Assembly (NCBI GenBank): GCA_030323885.1
Contig: CM059196.1
Coordinates: 44,836,293 to 44,900,292 of the forward strand
Origin: Branchipolynoe longqiensis
Lineage: Eukaryota > Annelida > Polychaeta > Phyllodocida > Polynoidae
DNA length: 64,000 nucleotides
Direction of reading: 5' to 3'
Shown here: positions 2,326 through 64,000 of the stretch, in pieces
How positions within the stretch are numbered: the stretch's first letter is position 1
Layout: the number at the start of each line of letters is the position of its first letter
The notes under the pieces: model-generated
Told to the model about the DNA's origin: nothing
Database searches by the model: none
The model's input: the letters and a program-made list of their open reading frames with translations, nothing else
Position numbers and translations under genes: made by a program

Positions 2326-2749
2326 ATAGAAAAAAAATAACATATAAAGAAAGCAGCATGCAGTTAATCGCGAATTACCCTTGATAGATAACCATCAGTT
2401 CAGAATATGTGAAACAAACAATTAAATATGGTAAGCAACAATAAATATAGCAAATCATGCAATATAATGTCTGTAAAATCTAATGATGGAAGACCAGTAT
2501 TTCAGTGCTGATGAATAAAATATTTGTAAAAACGCAACAAAAACTATCTAACTAATAACAATTGCCATTAATCGCCTTCCCGGAAATAATACTGAGTAAT
2601 CTAATCAGAGTGACTATTGTCACGGTACCATGTCCCGAGCGTGAGATTCTATAGGCGCAGTACTGTGACAACAGTAGATTATTCTACAATCACGGTTTCC
2701 CTTAGGTTTAGTGTTAAGGTTAGATATTTTACATAGACATTACCTGTAG
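2326..2749. other. AT-rich unique sequence
   Basis: No coding frame, repeat family or RNA gene is recognised here. Confidence 0.5.
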
Positions 2750-3425
2750 ACTTCGGATCTAAAAGAATGGTATAGTGATGCTAGACTGCCGATCTATATC
2801 AATGATACCACGATGCTAGACTGCTGCACTGCTGTCACAGCCCCATGATTTTAGAATATCCTTCTGTCGCCACAGTACTGTAACAATAGAGGTGTCCCCA
2901 TTGGCAATGTGGTAACCGTCGGATCTAAAAGAACAGTTCCATGATGCTAGACGGCCGATTTATATCAATGGTAACCAGACGGGATGACCGAATGAGTTAG
3001 AGCATCCGTCTCCCATGTTGGTAGATCATGGAGTCGTGGGTTCGAACCCTGGTTGAGTCAAACCGATGACTTAAAAATTGATACTTGTTGCTTCCTAGCC
3101 TGGTGCTCGGAATTATTAGGATAGGGCAAGGACTGGTTCCCTCAGTGTCAGGATAATGTGACTGAGTGGGATATCAGGTCATGGTGCTGGCGGCCTGGTC
3201 TTCCAGTGGGGCAGCACTATAAAATCGCCATGAGTGCGCACTGTCACAAGTCGGTGCCCGTCCTGATATGACCTTAGATGTTGCTAGGACGTAAAACAAA
3301 GAAACAATATATCAACGGTACCGGTATGCTAGACTGCTGCACTGCTGTCACCGCACCATCATTTTAGAATATCCTTCTGTCGCCACAGTACCATGAAAAT
3401 AGAGACATCCACCTGCCTTCTATTT
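2750..3425 (+). repeat. Diverged repeat host, split by a SINE
   Basis: Blocks ATGCTAGACTGC, TATATCAATGGTA and TTTTAGAATATCCTTCTGTC recur at 2775-2890, 2935-2973 and 3308-3405. The SINE at 2974-3307 splits the array. Confidence 0.65.
2974..3307 (+). mobile_element. SINE-A (A1 head, alpha tail), full length
   Basis: The A1 tRNA-like head with GGTTCGAACCCTGG B box is followed by the body and the alpha tail ending GGACGTAAAACAAAG. A near-perfect 13-bp duplication TATATCARYGGTA flanks it at 2961-2973 and 3308-3320. This is a pol III-type retroposon; it needs a partner LINE, not seen here. Confidence 0.85.
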
Positions 3426-3530
3426 GATCTATTGTATTGCTCTTTTGCATAGGTCTGGCATTAGTTTATGGAAGTGCCTATGTAAATTAGATGCACATAA
3501 CTGCTGACTACATTACACCAGCGCCTTCCT

Positions 3531-3854
3531 ATAGAGGGTGTGTAATGACGTTATAAGACCACTTTCGGTGGCCATATTGGATTACATACAGAAGGGTTGC
3601 ATCTACCTACACTGTGCTTATTTACTGATTTGTTGGTTTATTTGTCACTGTTTTGAGCAGTTTGGACTCAGAAGCTGTTGCTAAAGCGCTGTAAGTAAAC
3701 ACATTGGATGTAAACTGCACAGAACCTCCCAGAACACAAGAAAACTGTTTTACTGCATCTGCATGCATTCATAACATGGCAAAGGAGGGTGCTCGTAATC
3801 CAAAATGGCTGGCTGCTGACTTCTGAGTGATGACGTCACGTGCACTCCCTCTAT
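3531..3854. mobile_element. MITE-like inverted-repeat element
   Basis: Imperfect terminal inverted repeats of about 65 bp share ATAGAGGG, GTGACGT-like and TTGGATTAC blocks. Right-end ATGACGTCACGTG makes it CpG-rich. The 324-bp length, absence of an ORF and possible TA flanks suggest a non-autonomous DNA transposon. Confidence 0.6.
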
Positions 3855-4046
3855 TACCAACAAAGACTCCTTCCATTAACTAAGCCATTTACTGACAACA
3901 AATTGGAAATAAAGAAAATGAGGTCAGGCATGGCTGAATATAGCTCTTTAAGTGGGATGGTTTGTTGTTTTAATGAGAGCATAAGTCATTGTGGATGTTG
4001 GTGTCTTCTTTGCTGTTATTGATATACCACTGGATGTTGATATATT

Positions 4047-4990: not shown

Positions 4991-5194
4991 AGCGCGTGCA
5001 GAAATACAGTAATAATACATGTAAGGGACCTTTTCCAGGGTGCATGCGCAGTGAGCTGTTTTATCCAATGCTTTAGTTCTTGGCACTGCGCAAGAGGGCA
5101 ACATCGTCGATTCATAGTCACGTAATAACGCATGACATTAAATGGATATACAGAAAGATGTAAAGCGAGTTCGAAAGCGTGAGAAGATAACGGA

Positions 5195-6200
5195 GGAGAG
5201 AGAGGATGAGAGGAAGAGAGGAGAAGACAGGAGAAGACAGCAGAAGTGAGGAGAAGAGAGAGGAAGAGAGAGGAGGAGAGAGGAGGAGAGAGAAAGAGAG
5301 AGGAAGAGAGAGGAAGAGAGAGAGGAAGAGAGAATGGAAGAGAGAATGGAAGAGAGAATGGAAGAAAGAATGGAAGAGAGAATGGAAGAGAGAGGAATAG
5401 AGAGGAAGAGAGATCAAGAGAGATCAAGAGAGAGGAAGAGAGAATGGAAGAGAGATTGGAAGAGAGAATGGAAGAGAGAATGGAAGACAGCAGATGAGAG
5501 AATGGAAGACAGTAGAAGAGAATGGAAGAGAGGAAGAGAGAATGGAAGACAGTAGAAGAGCATGGAAGAGAGAGGAAGAGACAATGGAAGAGAGGAAGAG
5601 AGAATGGAAGAGAGAGGAATAGAGAATGGAAGAGAGGAAGAGAGAATGGAAGAGAGAGGAAGAGAGAATGGAAGAGAGGAAGACAGAATGGAAGAGAGGA
5701 AGAGAGAATGGAAGAGAGTAGAAAAGCATGGAAGAGGGAGGTTGGAGAAGAAGAGATAGGAAGAGAGAGCAGAAGAGACAGGGGAAGAATGAGTAAAGTA
5801 TAGAAGAGAGAAAGGAAGAGGGAAAGACAGGAATATAGAGGAAATGGGAGAGGACAAAATCAGGAAGACAGGGACAGAGGAAGATAGAACAAGAAGAAAT
5901 AGATGAACACAAAGGCGAAGACAGAGTAAGATATACAGGAGAAGTGAGAGAGAGGAAATGAGAATAAAAGAGTGAGGAAGAGACATACTGAGAGAAGGGG
6001 ACAACCGAAGAGAGTAAATGAGAGAGTAAGTGAGACAGGAATACAGAGAGGAAGAGCAATATGAAGATAGAGAGAGGAAAAGAGAAAAGAAGAGAAAGGA
6101 AGAGAGAGGAAGAGAGAGGGAGAGAGAGGGAGAGAGAGGAAGACAGAGGAAGAGAGAGGAAGAGAGTGAAGATTTGAGAGAAGAAGAGAGAAAAAAGAGG
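5195..6200. repeat. GA-rich 12-mer-type array, ~1 kb
   Basis: Imperfect repeats of a GGAAGAGAGAAT-like unit make the plus strand almost all purine. The long Lys/Glu/Arg or Leu/Ser/Phe frames in it follow from composition and are not a gene. It could form triplex DNA. Confidence 0.95.
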
Positions 6201-6337: not shown

Positions 6338-6475
6338 CTGACCTCTCAGGCAAGTAACCACACATACAGGTAGTCATGGGGAGCCTCGGTGGTGTAATGG
6401 TTAGCACACTGGCCCGGAATGCAAAGAGATGTGGGTTCGAGTCCCGCTCTAGGCCCAATATTCCCCATTTTCGTC
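6338..6475 (+). mobile_element. SINE-C copy
   Basis: tRNA-like core GGTGGTGTAATGGTTAGCAC (A box) and GGGTTCGAGTCCCGC (B box), preceded by the family's conserved block CACTGACCTCTCAGGCAAG. The core resembles Glu/Gly tRNA-type SINE heads but does not form a clean tRNA. Other copies: 12010, 46607, 46920, 48532. Confidence 0.75.
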
Positions 6476-7700: not shown

Positions 7701-7727
7701 AGAGAGTTTTTGATGATGGTCTGCTAA

Positions 7728-13030: not shown

Positions 13031-13309
13031 ATACATTATTACTACCGGAGAGCCTGTCCAGCAGACTAATCCAGCGTGCACTAATTGTACACGCCGGTAA
13101 CTGGGGGTGTTCACCTTTAGCACGACCGTACGATGAATATTAGATTGGCTAATTAAGGAGGTGGTATTCAGCAGGAAGTCGAGTGTGCCAAAACCGCACA
13201 AGACCCGTAGTCGCCAGAGGCCGTTGTGTGGCTTCCGGCATCCCTGGCATCCCCAGCGTCCCCACCACTTGAAGCCGCCTCCACTTTACCTACTCTCCCT
13301 CACATCACA

Positions 13310-14110
13310 TCCTTATGCACATACATCTCCACCACCATAGCAACCACCCCACCACCACGACCACCACGATCTCCACCACTTCCATCTTCACCGCCACCTC
13401 TACCACCACCACTACCACCACTACCACCACCGCACCCCACCCTACCAGCACCATCACCAACCCCACCTCCAAAACCACTACCATCTCCACCCCCTTCACC
13501 ACCACCACCTCCACCACCATCTCTACCACCACCATCACCACCTCTGCCACCTCCGCCACCACCAACATCACCAACGCTACCATCACTTCCACCACCGCTA
13601 CCACCACCACTACCACCACCCCCACCCTACCACCACCATCACCACCCCACCTCCAAAACCACCACCACCACACCACCACCACCAGATCCTCCACCACCAC
13701 CATTTCCCCCGTCCACCACCACCCGTCCACCACCACCCGTCCACCACCACCCCTCCACCACCACCCCTCCACCACCTTCCCATCCACCACCACCTCCTCC
13801 ACCACCACCACCTCCAATACCACATCCACCATCTCCTCCACCACCTCCCCTACTACAACCACCACCCCGACCCCCACCACCATCTCCACTACCACCACCA
13901 TCACCACCACCTCCACCACCTCTTCCACCATCTCCCCTACTACAACTACCACCCCCACCACAGACACTACCACCACCACCTCCACTACCACCACCACCAT
14001 CACCACCACCGGCTCCACCAACAACACCATCACCACCGTCCCTACCCGCTCCTCACCACCACCACCACCACCTCCACCTCCACCTCCACCTCCACCTCCA
14101 CCTTGCCGGC
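13310..14110. repeat. (CCA)n-type array, 0.8 kb
   Basis: CCA/CAC trinucleotides with TCC and CCC interruptions give long Pro-rich, Thr-rich and Val-rich frames in several phases. Simultaneous openness in many frames argues against a gene. Confidence 0.95.
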
Positions 14111-15923: not shown

Positions 15924-16445
15924 GGCCAGATGGGATGGCTGATTGAGTTGAGCATCCAACTCCTGCTTTGGTAGGTCGGGGGATTCAAATCCTTTGTTTT
16001 GAACTGTGGCCATCTCAAACCAATGACTTTGTTGTTGAAGATTTATACTGCCTATCATGGATAAGCCTGAATAGGCTTGTTTTCACCATTAGACAGTTTG
16101 TCGATAGAAAGCCCGAGTCTACACTTTTACCGACCCAAGGGATTTTTAACCTCCCACACCACATAGACATGGTATGAGAGCAACTGGCCTTTGATGACGC
16201 TGTAAGTTATACACAGCGTTGGAAATCCAAATTGGTAGAGGTGGAGGCACAGGGAATCGAACCACTGACCGTCAGATTAGGAATCCGACCTAGAAAAAAG
16301 TCAGACACTCTAACCACTCCACCACAGAGGACACCAACAAATTGATACTCGTCGTTATCTAGCCAGGTACAATCTCATCACTAGCAGAGGGCAACTGGAA
16401 TGAGGCAGACCAATTGTCCGCGATTGAAATTTCTCCTGCTTAATT
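15924..16445 (+). mobile_element. SINE-A with beta tail, interrupted by SINE-B
   Basis: The head (GGATGGCTGATTGAGTTGAG) and CAAACCAATGACTT lie left of 16033. The body resumes at about 16336 (AAATTGATACTCGTCG) and ends in the beta tail. SINE-B inserted between them, so it is younger. Confidence 0.75.
16033..16334 (-). mobile_element. SINE-B with gamma tail
   Basis: The minus-strand head resembles a tRNA with a long variable arm (GGTCAGACTC/CTAACCACTCC blocks). The tail is gamma, with hairpin AAGCCT/AGGCTT at 16063-16078. It is inserted in SINE-A. Confidence 0.85.
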
Positions 16446-16462
16446 GACAACCACACCAGAAC

Positions 16463-16692
16463 CAGACGGGATGGCCGAATGAGGTAGAGCATCATCCGCC
16501 TCCCAGATTGGTAGATCGTGGGATCATGGGTTCGAATCCTGGTCGAGTCAAACCAATGACTTAAAAATTGATACTTATAGCTTCCTAGCCAGGCGCTCTG
16601 CATTATTAGGATAGGGCAAGGAGCAGTGGAATGAGGAAGACGAATCGTCCACGATTGAAATTGCCCCTGCTTAAACAACTAATGTACCAACA
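16463..16692 (+). mobile_element. SINE-A1 with beta tail
   Basis: Full A1 head with GGGTTCGAATCCTGG, body to GGATAGGGCAAGGAG, then a direct switch to the beta tail ending AACAACTAATGTACCAAC. Tail hairpin AATCG/CGATT with loop TCCA. Confidence 0.9.
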
Positions 16693-22150: not shown

Positions 22151-22465
22151 ATTTTTTTTTTGGTCCATTAGTTGTTTAAGCAGGGGAAATTTCAGTCATA
22201 GACAACTGGTCTTCCTCATTCCACTGCTGGTCGATAGAAAGCCCGAGCCTACACTTTTACCAACCCAAGGGATTTTTAACCTCCCACACCACATAGACAT
22301 GGTATGAGAGCAACCGGCCTTTGATGACGCTGTAAGTTACACACAGCGGTGGAAATCCAAATTGGCAGAGCTGGGGGCACGGGGGATTGAACCGCCGACC
22401 CTCAGATTAGGAGTCTGACCTAGAAAAAGGTCAGACACTCTAACCACTCCCCCACAGAGAACGCC
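22151..22465 (-). mobile_element. SINE-B with beta tail, full length
   Basis: The left edge is a T run (the poly-A side), then the beta tail with hairpin CAGTTG/TGACTG, body and head ending CAGAGAACGCC. The head is shared with the gamma-tailed SINE-B copies. Confidence 0.9.
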
Positions 22466-22959
22466 AAATCGTCTGTCACATATACAAATCGTCCATCACA
22501 AAATGTAAATAAAATTATCAGTAAGTAAAAATGTCAATAATCTTACTATTGTAATGCTACTGTGGAGTCTATCATATCTCCAACATGCCTGTAACTCCAT
22601 TGCATTAGTAATGTTTATTAGTGCCGCAACTTATGTTACTACACGCAAACCATGGTGCAAGTTTGGTTAGGAACATAAACATTTCTTATGACTAAACCTT
22701 GTAAACCCTATCGATTTGTTCGAAAGCTGTCGACTTGCACTATTTTTAGTTCATGCTTCGTATTAGCGCAATGGTTAGGTATGGCACAATCATTCCCAAT
22801 TAGTGGTGCCGAACAAAGTATTTTACGCGCTGCTGTCAATCACTCCATGGCGTTCTTTGCTGTGATTGGTCAATTCTGTGGATTACAGTACAACTAGCAA
22901 CAAGCGGTTCGGTTCTATGTGCCTGCTGGTGCGTAAATACCTAATTACACTGGCATTTT
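22466..22959. other. No feature recognised
   Basis: Contains a 69-codon plus frame with no recognisable motif. It may include decayed retroelement sequence continuous with the gag-like region to the right. Confidence 0.35.
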
Positions 22960-27610: not shown

Positions 27611-27647
27611 ACCCTGACTCGGAAAGCCCCCGACTCTCACCCCTTCC

Positions 27648-28275
27648 CACACAAGCTCCCCTCCTCCCCCTCCTTCCCCTCCTTCCCCTCCTTCCCCTCC
27701 TTCCCCTCCTTCCCCTCCTTCCCCTCTTTCCCCGCCCCATCTCCTTTCTCCCTCTCCTCCCCTCTTTCCTCTCCTTCCCCTCCTTCCCCTCCTTCCCCTC
27801 CTTCCCCTCCTTCCCCTCCTTCCCCCTTCCCCTCATTCCCCTCCTTCTCCTCCTTCCCCTCCTTCTCCTCCTTCTCCTCCTTCTCCTCCTTCTCCTCCTT
27901 CTCCTCCTTCTCCTCCTTCTCCTCCATCTCCTCCATCTCCTCCTTCTCCTCCTTCTCCTCCTTCTCCTCCTTCTCCTTCTCCCCCTTCTCCTCCTTCTCC
28001 TCCTCCTTCTCCTCCTTCTGCTCCTTCTGCTCCTTCTCCTCCTTCTCCTCCTTCTCCTCCATCTCCTCCTTCTCCTCCTTCTCCTCCTTCTCCTCCTTCT
28101 CCTTCTCCTCCTTCTCCTCCTTCTCCTCCTTCTCCTCCTTCTCCTCCTTCTCCTCCTTCTCCTCCTTCTCCTCCTTCTCCTCCTTCTCCTTCTCCTCCTT
28201 CTCCTCCTTCTCCTCCTTCTCCTCCTTCTCCTCCTTCTCCTCCTTCTCCTCCTTTTCCTCAATCTCCTCCCCTCT
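27648..28275. repeat. (TCCTTC)n pyrimidine array
   Basis: CCTTCCCCT-type units grade into CTCCTTCTC units. The plus strand is almost purely pyrimidine for 0.6 kb. Ser/Phe, Arg and Glu/Lys frames here are artefacts. Confidence 0.95.
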
Positions 28276-33109: not shown

Positions 33110-33550
33110 AGGCTGCAAAAGGTAGCACAAGGCATCACAATGCAGCACAACCCAGCACAAGGTAGCAACACCCACAATAGGCAGAAAAAGGCAGCACAAG
33201 GCTGCAAAAGTAAGCAAAAGTCAGTAAAAGTCAGCAAAAGGCGGGAAAAGGCAGCAAAAGGCGGGAAAAGGCAGCAAAAGGCGACACAAGGCAGCAAAAG
33301 GGGGCCAAAGACGTCAAAAGTCTAGACAAGACTGCAAAAGGCAGCAAAAGGCAGCAAAACACAGCAAAAGGCAGCAAAAGGCCGTCAAAGGCGGCAAAAT
33401 GCTGGAAAATGCTGGAAAAGGCGGCAAAAGGCGGCAAATGGCTTCAAAAGGCGGCAAAAGGCAACAAAAGGCGGCAAAAGGCAGCAACAAGCTAGACAGT
33501 GCTGCAAAAGGCAGCAAAAGACAGAATAAGGTAGCAAAAGGCAGCAACAG
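33110..33550. repeat. (AAAAGGCRGC)n 10-bp array
   Basis: AAAAGGCAGC and AAAAGGCGGC units, with AAAGTCAGT variants on the left edge. Frames rich in Lys/Gly or Leu/Cys/Phe are compositional. Confidence 0.95.
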
Positions 33551-33954
33551 GGATCGTGAACTCGCTGAGCACACATTATCTATATCTGATATGAAATATA
33601 TATTCCTTCAAGCTGAATAATCCTTGTTTTGAGTTCCTGCCATGTTTGTATATAGATAAATATCCGGATGTGAGTGCATGGGGTGTAATGTATGTTACTT
33701 GGCCAGCCAGTAAACTCCTTCTTTACATGGGGAACAATCCCCACCTATCGCGATGTAAGAAATAAACAAGCAGCGGCGGAATAAATAATAATAATAATAA
33801 TAAAGCAGGCACCGCCAATTTATGTTCATATCATAAATTATATTACAAATATATACTAGAGCTGCGACCAGGTGTGCTGGGTCTCAGGTTCGGTTTTTTG
33901 TCTGAGGGACCAGTAGAACTTGGAAGACCCATATTCGAAGTGAGTTCGTGACTG

Positions 33955-34039: not shown

Positions 34040-34285
34040 TGTGAACCAGACAGGATGGCTGAATGAGTTAGAGCCTCCGTCTCCTATGTTTGGTAGATCG
34101 TGCGGTCGTGGGTTCGAATCCTGGTCGAGTCAAATCAATGACTTACAAATTGATACCTGTCACTTCCTAGCCAGGTGCTTGGCATTATTAGGATAGGGCA
34201 AGGAGCAGTGGAATGAGGTAGACCAATCGCCTGCGACTGAAATTTCCTCTGCTTAAACAACTAATGTACCAATAAAAGAAAAACA
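34040..34285 (+). mobile_element. SINE-A1 with beta tail
   Basis: Head with GGGTTCGAATCCTGG, body to GATAGGGCAAGGAG, then beta tail ending AACAACTAATGTACCAAT. Confidence 0.85.
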
Positions 34286-34289
34286 CTAC

Positions 34290-34345
34290 TACTGGCCAGC
34301 ATTGAAAACAAGCCTGGCTACCCAGGCTTACATGCTATGGACAGT
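34290..34345 (+). repeat. Gamma-tail-like hairpin block
   Basis: GAAAACAAGCCTGGCTACCC then AGGCTTACATG and GACAGTATAAAT. It matches the gamma tail with an 8-bp stem AAGCCTGG/CCAGGCTT at 34310-34329. It lies 3' of a beta tail, so it may be another SINE's remnant. Confidence 0.6.
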
Positions 34346-34913
34346 ATAAATACAGCCTCAATTTAAAAAAAAAGAAAAACAAAAGAGGGGGGTATGTTAT
34401 CTAGATCTAAAGCCCACCGGAGACTATAGGATACAGCAAGCTGTCCGTCAGTGTAACCCGGAGGGCGATGCAGTGTTGACCTATATAGATTGGTAAAGGG
34501 GTGGGCTGTAACCTCTCACCTCCTCCGGAACCCCATGCTGCCCACACACTCCGCCTCCCCAAGACGCCCCCCCCCCTCACCCTCCACCCCCAATACCCCG
34601 CCACGCCCCCCCCCCCACCCCGCCCCACCCAGCCCACAATCTCCCCGTTGCCATAGCAACTATAAATGGCCAGACATCCTCTGAACAGCCTCACTCTCTT
34701 CCAAGGCGAGCAGACGACATTAGAGGAACTATCAATATAGTATTAGTATCAGGAAGCGAGTTGCTCTTTTTAATATCTCCCACCTGCCTAAGGATCCTTA
34801 TCATTTTCTTTACATTTTTTGGGTAGGTTATTTATTTCTCTCTTTTTTTAATCTTTTTTTTTTATGATCGTGTTAATTGTATGTACTAGTTTTCGCCGTG
34901 TGCAGTAGTTAGT

Positions 34914-36308: not shown

Positions 36309-36520
36309 GGGGGTACATTAGTTGTTTAAGCATGGGAAATTTCAATTGTGGAGGATTGGTCTTCCTCATTCCAGTGCTCCTTGACCTATCCTAATAATGC
36401 CGAGCGCCTGGCTAGGAAGCGACAAGTATCAATTTTTAAGTCATTGGTTTGACTCGACCAGGGTTCAAACCCACCACCCCATGATCTACCAAACACGGGA
36501 GACGTGTTTGGTAGTTCAGG
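36309..36520 (-). mobile_element. SINE-A1 with beta tail
   Basis: GTACATTAGTTGTTTAAGCA (tail) to CCATGATCTACCAAACACGG (head, 5' truncated). A gamma-like fragment AGGCTTGTTTTCAATG abuts it at 36518-36535. Confidence 0.8.
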
Positions 36521-36535
36521 CTTGTTTTCAATGAT

Positions 36536-37280
36536 GGCCAGCTGTAGTGTTGGTGTTGTCTTACCAAACAGTAGCTCCTGATACATTATTTGATTGCCTG
36601 CATTTCAGTTGCAGATAGATAGTTTGTTGGTATGGTTAGTAGCCTATGTTAGTTTTTTTTGGGACCCTCTTGGCATTGTATTTTTGTTCTATTCTTATTA
36701 CTATGTTAGTTGTTTTCTTAAGGTTCTATGTTAGTGTTTTGGGGTTTTCTTGGGAAGAGTTTTCCACTTGTTTCTACTTAATTCTATACTAGCCTATTTT
36801 ATGTACATGTCCATAGGATTGTACGTAATAGGTGGTTGACTTATGTTTGTTTGGATTTGATTTGATTTATATTGTTGTTGGACATGTTATCTGGCTTTTA
36901 TATTTCCGGTTTTCCCATCCTGGGCTGTCCAGTTGGTGGGCCGTGACATATCACCTGCCCCCTTGTGGTGTAGTTCAGTTGGGGTTCCCAGTTTTTATTT
37001 TGCACAGATAAGTTTTTATTTTGCCTCAGTATAAACCAAAGTGATCCATCCCTCGATATGGATATACACATATATATATACATATATATAGCATATGTGT
37101 ATATAAGTATAATTATATATTTAAGCAGTCTAATGGTTGCATACAAGGACCTAGATAGCACAAGTCTGGTTGGAGAATATATATGCATAGTATATATTCT
37201 TTGGTAGGAAATGTATCAAATAACCTACCAAAGTATTAGTTTGAGATCCCACCAACAGTGCCTCCACACCGCCTTGCAGT
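36536..37280. other. T-rich sequence, short (TA)n, no gene seen
   Basis: GTTAGTTT and TTTGTTC words; a TA/CATATA stretch at 37060-37110. A 96-codon minus frame at 36898-37188 has no recognisable motif. Confidence 0.5.
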
Positions 37281-39718: not shown

Positions 39719-40520
39719 TTATCAGAAACTCAATACCATCGGATCATGCAACTTTAGTAGTACATTGTGTAACTGCTGACGCCCCCCCCCCACACAACTT
39801 GAAATATCTCCAAAATTAGCTATTAATTTCACTGATCTAAAGAGAAGTAGATAGTAACCAGATATGTTTAATAAATAATTTACTCCAGCACCAAATATTA
39901 ACTCTAGAGAAGTAGATTATATTATAATTATCAACCTAATATGTTTATCTAAATCAATAATTTAAACTCCCCACCAAATATGAACTATAGAGAAGTCAAT
40001 AGTAACGACAAACCTAATACGTTTACTAAATTAATAACTTAATCCCACGACCTATTTTTTTTTTTTGGTCCATTAGTTGTTTAAGCAGGGGAAATTTCAG
40101 TCATAGACGACTGGTCTTCCTCATTCCACTGCTGGTCGATAGAAAGCTCGAGCCTACACTTTTACTGACCCAAGGGATTTTTAACCTCCCACACCACATA
40201 GACATGGTATGAGAGTAACCGGCCCTTTGATGACGCTGTAAGTTATACACAGCGTTGGAAATCCAAATTGGCAGAGCTGGGGGCACATGGAATCAAACCG
40301 CCGACCCTCAGATTAGGAGTCTGACCTAGAAAAAAGTCAGACACTCTAACCACTCCGCCACAGAGAACGCCTATAATTAACTCAAACGAAATAGATAATA
40401 ATCATCAACCTAATACTTTTATCTAAATAAATAATTTAACCCCCTTCAAATATTAACTATAAAGAAGTAGATAATAATGATAAACCAGCTATGTTTATCT
40501 AAAAAGTAATGGTAGCCATT
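39719..40520 (+). repeat. MITE-1-derived tandem array, split by SINE-B
   Basis: The array begins with a MITE-1 end (CATCGGATCATGCAACTTTA). Units of about 65-83 bp then repeat AGAGAAGTAGATARTAA, CAACCTAATATGTTTATCTA and AATAATTTAA, words of the MITE-1 3' half. Units lie both left (39800-40050) and right (40373-40510) of the inserted SINE-B. Confidence 0.65.
40056..40371 (-). mobile_element. SINE-B with beta tail, full length
   Basis: T run, beta tail (hairpin CAGTCG/TGACTG), body, head ending CAGAGAACGCC. A short CCTAT at both edges may be the duplication. Confidence 0.9.
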
Positions 40521-42254: not shown

Positions 42255-42419
42255 CTGGCTGCGTCCCTGTTGGAATCATGCACGGACCCCTTGTCTTCTG
42301 AGAATGACATCACACACTGACTCCTCCAGTATTCACCTACCAATCAGCGACAACAACCACATTTATATCCTTATAGTTGTGATACTTAAATGACCAGACA
42401 TTGGCTTAGAGTAAGTTGT

Positions 42420-42735
42420 GGCGTTCTCTGTGGCGGAGTGGTTAGACTTAGAGTGTCTGACGTTTTTTCTAGGTCAGACTCCTAATCTGAAGGTCGGTGG
42501 TTCGATTCCCATGCCTCCACCTCTGCCAATTTCGATTTCCACAGCTGTGGATAACTTACAGCGTCATTAAAGGCCAGTTGCTCTCATACCATGTCTATGT
42601 GGTGTGGGAGGTTAAAAATCCCCTGGGTCAGTAAAAGTGTAGACTCGGGCTTTCTATCGACAAACTGTCTAATGGTGAAAACAAGTCTATTCAGGCTTAT
42701 CCATGATAGGCAGTATAAATCTTCAAGAAAAGTTG
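42420..42735 (+). mobile_element. SINE-B with gamma tail, full length
   Basis: Starts GGCGTTCTCTGTGGCGGAGT, B box GGTTCGATTCCC, body to CGGGCTTTCTATCGAC, then gamma tail. The hairpin AAGTCT/AGGCTT (42683-42698) has one G-U pair. Confidence 0.9.
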
Positions 42736-46606: not shown

Positions 46607-46775
46607 ATAGTGGTCTGCACTGACCTCTCAGGCAAGGAGCCGCATAGACAGGTAGGCATGGGTAGTGTGTTGATATCAGGGAGCCTAGGTGGTGTAATGG
46701 TTAGCACACTGGCCTGGAATGCAAAGAGATGTGGGTTCGAGTCCGACTCTAGGCACAATATTTCCCATTTTCATG
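46607..46775 (+). mobile_element. SINE-C copy
   Basis: CACTGACCTCTCAGGCAAGG upstream block, GGTGTAATGGTTAGCACACT, B box GGGTTCGAGTCC, end CATTTTCATGA. Confidence 0.8.
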
Positions 46776-47700: not shown

Positions 47701-47720
47701 ACATCCATTATCCATATCGT

Positions 47721-48045
47721 GGCGTTCTCTGTGGTGGAGTGGTTAGAGTGTCTGACTTTTTTCTAGGTCAGACTCCTAATCTGAGGGTCGCCGGTTCGAT
47801 TCCCCGTGCCCCCAGCCCTGCCAATTTGGATTTCCACCGCTGTGTATAACTTACAGCGTCATCAAAGACCGGTTGCTCTCATACCAAGTCTATGTGGTGT
47901 GGGAGGTTAAAAATCCCTTGGGTCGGTAAAAGTGTAGGCTCAGGCTTTCTATCGACCAGCAGTGGAGTGGGGAAGACCAGTCATCTGTGACTGGGATTTC
48001 CCCTGCTTGGGACAACTAATGTACCAACAAAAAAAAGAAAAAAAG
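47721..48045 (+). mobile_element. SINE-B with beta tail, full length
   Basis: GGCGTTCTCTGTGGTGGAGT start; body to TTTCTATCGACC; beta tail with perfect stem CAGTCA/TGACTG; A-rich end. Confidence 0.95.
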
Positions 48046-52302: not shown

Positions 52303-52403
52303 TCTTGAAGATTTATACTGCCTATTATGGATAAGTCTGAATAGACTTGTTTTCACCATTATACAGTTTGTCGATAGAAAGTCAGAGCCTACACTTTTAC
52401 TGT
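52303..52403 (-). mobile_element. SINE-B gamma-tail fragment
   Basis: Hairpin AAGTCT/AGACTT (52333-52348), fully paired. It joins directly to the SINE-A at 52404. Confidence 0.8.
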
Positions 52404-57774: not shown

Positions 57775-58040
57775 TCTAATCTCCACAATTGGCAACATGC
57801 TAATTTTTCCTACAGAGAATAGTAGTTCTTAGACAACACATATTCTTTCCAATTAGGCCCTCATAATGTTGATGTTTGATTTATTATGTGTTTATTCATT
57901 CGGGTATTCAATTTGCATCACCATTGTCATGGTCTTCCAGCCTCGCATTTGTTTCAAGTTGCATTCATGTATATTTAGATGAACAAGTTCCTTTTGTGGA
58001 GTTATTACAGTTAATTTGTTTTGTTAAACTTGACTTGGAT
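57775..58040. other. No feature recognised
   Basis: Unremarkable sequence leading into the satellite. Confidence 0.5.
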
Positions 58041-58045
58041 CGTAT

Positions 58046-58645
58046 AAGGATATCCTAATAACGATGTATACTCCAATATGGACATTTCACAATGTATATT
58101 CCAATGTGGACATTTCGCAATGTATATTCCAATGTGGACCTGACACAATGTATATTCCAATATGGACATTTCACAATGTATATTCCAATGTGGACATTTC
58201 ACAATGTATATTCCAATGTGGACATTTCACAATGTATATTCCAATATGGGCATTACACAATGTATATTCCAATGTGGATATTTCACAATGTATATTCCAA
58301 TATGGGCATTACACAATGTATATTCCAATGTGGACATTTCACAATGTATATTCCAATATGGACATTTCACAATGTATATTCCAATATGGACATTTCGCAA
58401 TGTATATTCCAATATGGACATTTCTCAATGTATATTCCAATGTGGACATGTCACAATGTATATTTCAATATGGACATTTCACAATGTATATTCCAATGTG
58501 GACATGTCACAATGTATATTCCAATATGGACATTTCACAATGTATATTCTAATATAGATATTTAAGGATATCCTAATAACGATGTATACTCCAATATGGA
58601 CATTTCGCAATGTATATTCCAATGTGGACCTGTCACAATGTATCT
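58046..58645. repeat. 28-bp satellite with duplicated edge
   Basis: Unit GTATATTCCAATGTGGACAT plus TTCACAAT, about 18 copies. The left edge AAGGATATCCTAATAACGAT recurs at 58564, followed by two more units: a 518-bp higher-order duplication. As 28 is not a multiple of 3, all three plus frames stay open. Confidence 0.97.
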
Positions 58646-58768
58646 CCCTCCCTCCTGCCGTTGGGAAAACGTTTAACATTGTGACCAGTGGTGACCTACC
58701 GTTTTCCTTATTGGCGCTCATATCCACAGATATTTCTTTGCTAGCAGAAGGAGAGATTGCTCCCTTAA

Positions 58769-63929: not shown

Positions 63930-64000
63930 TGAATTTATTTACCCTGCTCATAACGGATAAGTGTCTTAACACTTGTTTTCACCGCTGGGTAGCACTAATC
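63930..64000 (-). mobile_element. Gamma tail of a SINE-B-like copy, cut by window end
   Basis: GGATAAGTGTCTTAACACTT then GTTTTCACC; stem AAGTGT/ACACTT at 63959-63974 (gamma hairpin with different bases). The rest lies outside the window. Confidence 0.6.

Follow-up and report, generated by a model that had tools for sequence, protein, structure and literature searches.

The window, by which we mean the whole 64,000-nucleotide stretch of Branchipolynoe longqiensis DNA analyzed here, contains five copies of a sequence termed the gamma tail, the start of a sixth, a second kind of tail termed beta, and many long tandem arrays of short units (Table 1). The hairpin under study is the upper, or apical, hairpin of the gamma tail at the right end of the window. 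The preliminary description had reported one hairpin with differing stems and 4-nt loops in five gamma tails. All five hairpins are present with the stems described, and RNAfold, which served as the independent check of loop size in these five tails, draws a 4-nt apical loop in each. The class also stands, although it comprises two sorts that had been missed: SINE tails (16063, 42683 and the tail part of 52333) and LINE-type tails (34310 and 63959). The homologous window tails share the layout TGAAAACAAG-hairpin-CTTA...TAAAT, and a covariance model made from the five of them (R1) recovered all five in the window at E <1e-12, with the next best match at E 0.8 and nothing else convincing.

Table 1. 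Gamma tails and other features of the window; beta tails and tandem arrays are given as examples
Feature	Position	Strand	Remarks
Gamma tail, 63959 LINE-type family	63932..63994	-	stem AAGTGT/ACACTT, loop TAAG; element runs past window edge
Upper (apical) hairpin of the preceding tail	63959..63974	-	finding under study
Gamma tail, SINE copy	16036..16098	-	hairpin 16063-16078, CCT/AGG type; SINE ~16036-16336, minus
Gamma tail, SINE copy	42663..42725	+	hairpin 42683-42698, one U.G pair; SINE ~42419-42725
Gamma tail on chimeric body	52306..52368	-	hairpin 52333-52348, TCT/AGA type; head and body of another SINE upstream
Gamma tail, L027-type LINE	34290..34356	+	short 5'-truncated 3' end; upper stem 8 bp, 34310-34329
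Sixth gamma tail (start only), L027-type	36517..36551	-	ends within upper hairpin, where another SINE starts
Broken gamma tail and SINE	36312-36551	-	tail broken in upper hairpin, then 5'-shortened SINE
SINE body of 16063/42683 with beta tail	22205-22467	-	
SINE body of 16063/42683 with beta tail	40109-40386	-	
SINE body of 16063/42683 with beta tail	47719-47982	+	
Beta tail	22169-22228	-	
Beta tail	40074-40133	-	
Beta tail	47954-48020	+	
Beta tail	34206-34270	+	
Beta tail	16626-16690	+	
tRNA-Ser (GGA)	6383-6456	+	ARAGORN call, Rfam tRNA too; gene or repeat head
tRNA-Ser (GGA)	46683-46756	+	ARAGORN call, Rfam tRNA too; gene or repeat head
Long tandem arrays of short units	5180-5690, 13295-13990, 27618-28102, 33135-33594, 57949-58674		many in window

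The L027-type tail at 34290 sits directly 3' of a beta-tailed SINE, similarity to the related stretch L016 beginning at 34282. Upstream of the sixth, incomplete tail, element sequence extends to ~36703, and the break in its upper hairpin perhaps reflects a template switch or a deletion. Near the right edge of the window, the overlapping stretch L009 holds a 514-aa open frame rich in proline and alanine (2500-4044, +).

Abundance and larger fold of the gamma tail

Gamma hairpins occur in this genome far beyond chance. Exact tails of the form TGAAAACAAG-N10-CTTA number 29,461 (14,678 + 14,783) in the 1.85-Gb genome, against 17 control matches (7 + 10), and AAGCCTNNNNAGGCTT is found 5534 times, against 27 for the reversed control pattern. 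Eight tails lie in 230 kb made up of 23 pieces of 10 kb (L010-L032; 20 gave the eight, a further three gave none), which were placed at round coordinates with content not a criterion. No gamma tail was found in the collections outside this genome; the tail pattern matched one viral and three prokaryote contigs, in which the rest of the tail is absent by eye, and these matches were taken as chance.

The hairpin of the preliminary description is real, but it is the tip of a wider structure of ~50 nt that had been missed. In A1, a plain MAFFT alignment of the five window tails built without structure information, RNAalifold places 18 pairs, 12 of them in a lower helix whose 3' strand carries a 2-nt bulge, followed by an internal loop with a GAAAAC strand and by the upper hairpin of six pairs. 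The predicted sense-RNA fold comprises a lower helix of 7 bp, the 2-nt 3'-side bulge and another 4 bp, above which come an asymmetric internal loop with the conserved GAAAAC strand and the upper stem, which in fully paired examples has 5, 6 or 8 bp and a 4-nt loop. UAAAU follows on the 3' side, and then a CAA- or A-rich end. A second alignment, A4, has 19 rows, 17 of them distinct, and is composed of the round-coordinate tails, loci matching the AAGCCTNNNNAGGCTT pattern, L009 and the window; it includes both the L009 and the window copy of one place, identical rows being counted once. On A4, RNAalifold retained the inner 4 bp and the upper stem and dropped the outer 7 bp. Folding the five gamma tails singly gave z-scores of -4.4, -2.6, -1.7, -2.4 and -1.8, which are supportive of the predicted fold, not decisive.

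Thirteen upper hairpins were paired from the base of the stem towards a 4-nt loop, a size imposed by the script; eight pair fully (stems of 14, 16 and 20 nt) and five contain mismatches (L011, L016, L023 and the L021 tails at 7708 and 4067). The apical loops vary by family (ATTC, TAAG/TAAC, NTAC, ATTA). GAAAAC is kept in 22 of the 24 rows of alignment A7, the exceptions being L008 and the LINE-type tail of L006; the 29,461-tail pattern, used later, requires GAAAAC, and that sample is therefore uninformative on its conservation. A7 leaves out L035, a partial tail, and L009, which is the same place as window 63932-63994, and A8 leaves out L035, L009, L005, L007 and L008, to keep down the number of copies from one subfamily. 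Because a covariance model aligned A4, A7 and A8 to the structure, these three are biased towards it, whereas A1 is free of this bias.

Pairing across diverging stems

Between 34310 and 16063, each of the four inner lower-helix pairs has changed on both sides with pairing intact. In a 17-pair version of the A1 structure, 95.3% of 85 cells are paired and seven pairs have changed on both sides, values that none of 500 shuffles reached for either measure; sliding the partners by 1-3 columns lowers pairing to 27-44%. A4 has 93.0% of cells paired, eight pairs with changes on both sides and a covariation score of 0.372, against 0.205 when shuffled (0 of 500). In all four alignments, the paired cells, the cells changed on both sides and the covariation score exceeded 500 of 500 shuffles, and the slid versions collapsed. 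Two other measures separate less well: standard pair types, not unusual in A1, were matched by 232, 216, 104 and 4 of 500 shuffles in the four alignments (A1 and A4 first), and the count of pairs changed on both sides by 0, 7, 0 and 29, in the same order.

The R-scape covariation check proposed in the preliminary description was carried out as an R-scape-like test on 23 and on 40 tails, not genome-wide, with a FastTree tree, parsimony substitutions dealt branch by branch to random columns and an APC-corrected G statistic. It yielded no significant pair, none of 1770 pairs reaching E<0.05 with either set, an outcome close to the refuting condition set in the preliminary description. Inside the structure, the lowest E was 5.2 with 23 tails and 12.1 in the 40-tail set, where a single pair among the 1770 came in under E 1 (E 0.84), and that pair lies outside the structure. 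Tested as a whole against tree-aware nulls, the structure gave a different result. With 23 tails, 93.2% is paired against null means of 76-78% (0 of 5000), 39 cells have changed on both sides against ~9 (1 and 0 of 5000 in two forms of the null), and seven pairs show such changes against three (83 and 40 of 5000). With 40 distinct tails, 91.5% of cells are paired against means of 62-65%, and 54 cells have changed on both sides, neither value being reached in 4000 replicates; eight pairs show changes on both sides, a number reached by 216 and 101 of the 4000. The earlier claim that the paired changes imply selection on RNA structure thus holds for the fold as a whole, against both the shuffles and the tree null, but not for any individual pair: the fold is kept, and single pairs are not certified. 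We infer that the small number of independent lineages, with few families and hence low power, accounts for the latter. Along branches of the 40-tail tree, pairing survived four events that altered both sides and 29 that altered one, and a further 41 events left the pair non-standard, many of these last probably representing decay after insertion. A random-substitution null started from the 16063 tail gave P 0.009 for 34310, 0.011 for 63959 and 0.21 for 52333.

These data also bear on the explanation that there is no structural selection and that the stems covary through founder effects, retrotransposition having multiplied a few source elements that differed by chance. The variation is indeed confined to few lineages, few source lineages account for the paired changes, 63959 and 34310 are not independent because they have pair changes in common, and the tree-aware test per pair is not significant. 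The 4000 replicates of the tree null, in which branch substitutions were dealt to random columns, nevertheless never kept the observed pairing or produced the observed both-sided cells, and upper stems of differing length still pair, so that we regard a pure founder effect as improbable.

Stem types were counted in the first 100 listed of the 29,461 tails, all on contig C1 and not a random sample, in which TGAAAACAAG and CTTA are fixed by the pattern and the ten bases between them are free; 20 further stretches were hand-picked from these 100 places to span the stem types. TCT/AGA accounts for 52, CCT/AGG for 12, TGT/ACA for 8, TCT/AGG for 7 and others for 21, and pairs 4, 5 and 6 are standard in 89, 96 and 96 tails. 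The table of C/T by G/A at pair 4 (13, 3, 7, 69; Fisher P 1.5e-8, uncorrected for relatedness) points to at least two SINE subfamilies, which seem to differ by a full C-G to U-A change. By eye, CCT/AGG copies are mostly followed by CAAC (five of the seven looked at) and TCT copies by CAAG (nine of ten, three TCT/AGG copies included). The non-canonical pairs are asymmetric as well, with 62 G.U against 20 A.C cells in the 40 tails and 14 against 5 in the 100-tail sample (P 0.06). Pair 6-72 is U.G in 27 of 39 tails; leaving it out of the 40-tail count gives 35 against 19 (P 0.04, relatedness not considered). This excess of G.U weakly favors structure in the sense RNA.

Carriers of the tail

One kind of SINE body precedes the tail at 16063 and 42683 and in L005, L006, L007, L011 and L029, and in L008 it is 5'-shortened. 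In one copy, the search for a tRNA-like 5' head gave Rfam tRNA-Sec at E 0.75, with 17.3 bits against a gathering score of 47, and GGTTCGATTCC in the SINE looks, by eye, B-box-like. A gamma SINE (L006 1245-1563, compared with L009 386-470) is inserted in a 63959-type element ~40 nt before the tail of the latter.

Animal SINEs are modular, consisting of a head, a body and a LINE-derived tail, and here too one body bears either a beta or a gamma tail. When beta- and gamma-tailed SINEs are compared by BLAST, similarity has died away 20-odd nt into the tail, so that tails appear to be interchangeable modules. A separate hairpin, with 6 bp and a 4-nt loop, is present in the beta tail; its closing pair in 11 copies is G-C in seven, G.U in two, A-U in one and unpaired in one. 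Its covariation is indistinct in those 11 copies (90.9% of cells paired against 87.9% shuffled, reached by 34 of 500 shuffles), and single-strand folding of six beta tails was unremarkable in five (z -0.7 to -1.25) and strong in one (z -3.0). Model R1, run without filters, gave weak in-register matches on two beta tails (E 1.3 and 7.5), and a second covariance model (R2), run with default filters, matched no beta tail in the window up to E 5, so homology between the two tails is not claimed.

The tail also ends LINE-type elements. The tail at 4067 in L021 is 220 nt 3' of a reverse transcriptase (RT) fragment (RVT_1 E 6.5e-9), for which a first look gave 9396 candidates genome-wide, 150 of the 150 scored being matches. 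Model R2, made without the ten stretches around or downstream of RT matches, found tails in seven of these ten RT-chosen stretches, six full-length (E 5.6e-12 or better) and one partial (E 4.8e-8), and no tail in the other three. In L034, an RT ORF (RVT_1 E 4.9e-40) ends with a stop codon 330 nt 5' of the tail, and the same stop, identified by sequence, is found 326-357 nt 5' of the tail in seven copies. L033 has a PF14529 endonuclease (EN) ORF (E 7.2e-11) and an RVT_1 ORF (E 5.5e-35), which are separate there. The ORF before the RT ORF in L034 (2773-3477) had no Pfam match, and nine ORFs of the window gave nothing above the Pfam cut-off. By its EN and RT domains, the L033/L034-type LINE classifies as an APE-type non-LTR retrotransposon. 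A search with its protein scored 6682 relatives, and its PDB matches include the L1 ORF2, R2 and group II intron RTs. It may resemble the CR1/L2 group.

An RT relative also lies ~840 nt upstream of a variant tail with an 8-bp upper stem in L027, two of its pieces, of 102 residues each, being 52% and 32% identical to the L034 RT; this 3' end is common to 34310, L016 and L023. The 63959 tail has no SINE body upstream, and its upstream element sequence recurs in L006, L052-L054 and L056, while L051 has the same stem type without that sequence. The RT of the 63959-type element was not found, and its assignment as LINE-type is accordingly indirect. There are thus at least three LINE-type tail families (L034-type, L027-type and 63959-type), the first two with RT relatives attached. 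Given these carriers and the RVT_1 ORF before the L034 tail, the name "LINE 3' tail" used in the preliminary description is correct. No LINE was found with a tail identical to the exact tail of the SINE; the tail sequence common to the two is homologous, its identity not exact. The tail stands near the 3' terminus and is followed by UAAAU and then by CAA- or A-rich ends, as judged by eye, a clear repeat being absent from some copies.

The block might instead be the C-terminal end of a LINE ORF, with a frame LxSxENK over GGTGAAAACAAG, in which case coding would be conserved and the hairpin incidental. Visual inspection shows this frame in several LINE-type copies, and at the 63959 tail tblastn gives an alignment to it (LVLPSGENKC, E 0.28). 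The upstream stop codon, however, means that the tail is not coding in the L034-type LINE, for which the idea is refuted, and block and fold also persist in the SINE, whose tail is not preceded by a LINE ORF, leaving a coding origin highly improbable. Equally slim is the chance that the inverted repeat acts as DNA, whether by forming a cruciform or by serving as a DNA-transposon hairpin. A hairpin is symmetric at the DNA level, and the one SINE insertion compared (L006 against L009) has no target-site duplication longer than ~2 nt, but the L033/L034-type elements have EN and RT domains, copies are 5'-truncated with CAA- or A-rich ends, and the frequent sense-strand U.G pair and the overall excess of G.U over A.C favor the sense RNA.

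A putative recognition element and its known counterparts

We consider it very likely that the gamma tail is the 3' recognition element of a set of related LINEs, borne also by a SINE that uses their machinery. The LINE protein would bind the gamma fold on LINE or SINE RNA, position the 3' end of that RNA and start target-primed reverse transcription, and the stem sequence would then be free to diverge, mostly through compensating substitutions, with the geometry, the GAAAAC strand and the UAAAU end preserved. The gamma tail is taken as the same kind of signal as the tails of stringent-type LINEs because it has the same anatomy, and conservation of the internal-loop strand points to it as the part that the protein may read. 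We infer recognition by the reverse transcriptase, which the preliminary description had invoked, from this likeness. The best reading is therefore of a known kind, a recognition hairpin at the 3' end of stringent-type LINEs that SINEs have taken over, in families that are new as far as seen: no transposon-related title appeared among the literature matches listed for the tail letters, and no description of the gamma tail was found in related work. More speculatively, several LINE families may share one recognition fold, whose constant determinant would be the GAAAAC strand and UAAAU end, not the apical loop, with stems and apical loops free to co-diverge and one SINE mobilizable by several LINE families; we hold this to be possible, though doubtful. 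If it were true, the SINE subfamilies TCT/AGA (CAAG) and CCT/AGG (CAAC) would record switches of LINE partner through a compensatory U.G step.

To our knowledge, how LINE proteins choose their RNA has been worked out for few elements. This one genome supplies 29,461 exact-context tails, and its LINE-type lineages, at least three in number, vary naturally in stem, stem length and loop; such a data set is fit for asking which part of the tail is read and how SINEs keep pace with LINEs.

Stringent-type LINEs recognize a 3' stem-loop in their own RNA (PMC4176376). In ZfL2-1 and ZfL2-2, deleting or swapping the stem-loop abolished retrotransposition, stem and loop both matter, and ORF2 binds the stem-loop through a region between EN and RT (PMC4176376). 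Like the gamma LINEs, these zebrafish L2-clade elements and the eel UnaL2 have EN and RT, a 3'-UTR stem-loop with upper and lower stems and a 3' repeat unit; the UnaL2 stem has a bulged nucleotide, as the gamma fold has a bulge, and SINEs share LINE tails in those systems, as here (PMC4176376). The sequence differs, however, and the loop decides specificity there, whereas in the gamma tail the apical loop varies and the GAAAAC strand is constant. In a bivalve survey, LINE donors are given as known for three of eight described SINE families (PMC10294476). A plant L1-clade LINE and a monocot SINE share a 3' hairpin of ~50 nt with compensatory stem mutations (PMC3747384), much like the gamma tail, although clade and sequence are different and that hairpin has a conserved UCU loop and a CGAG 3' of the stem.
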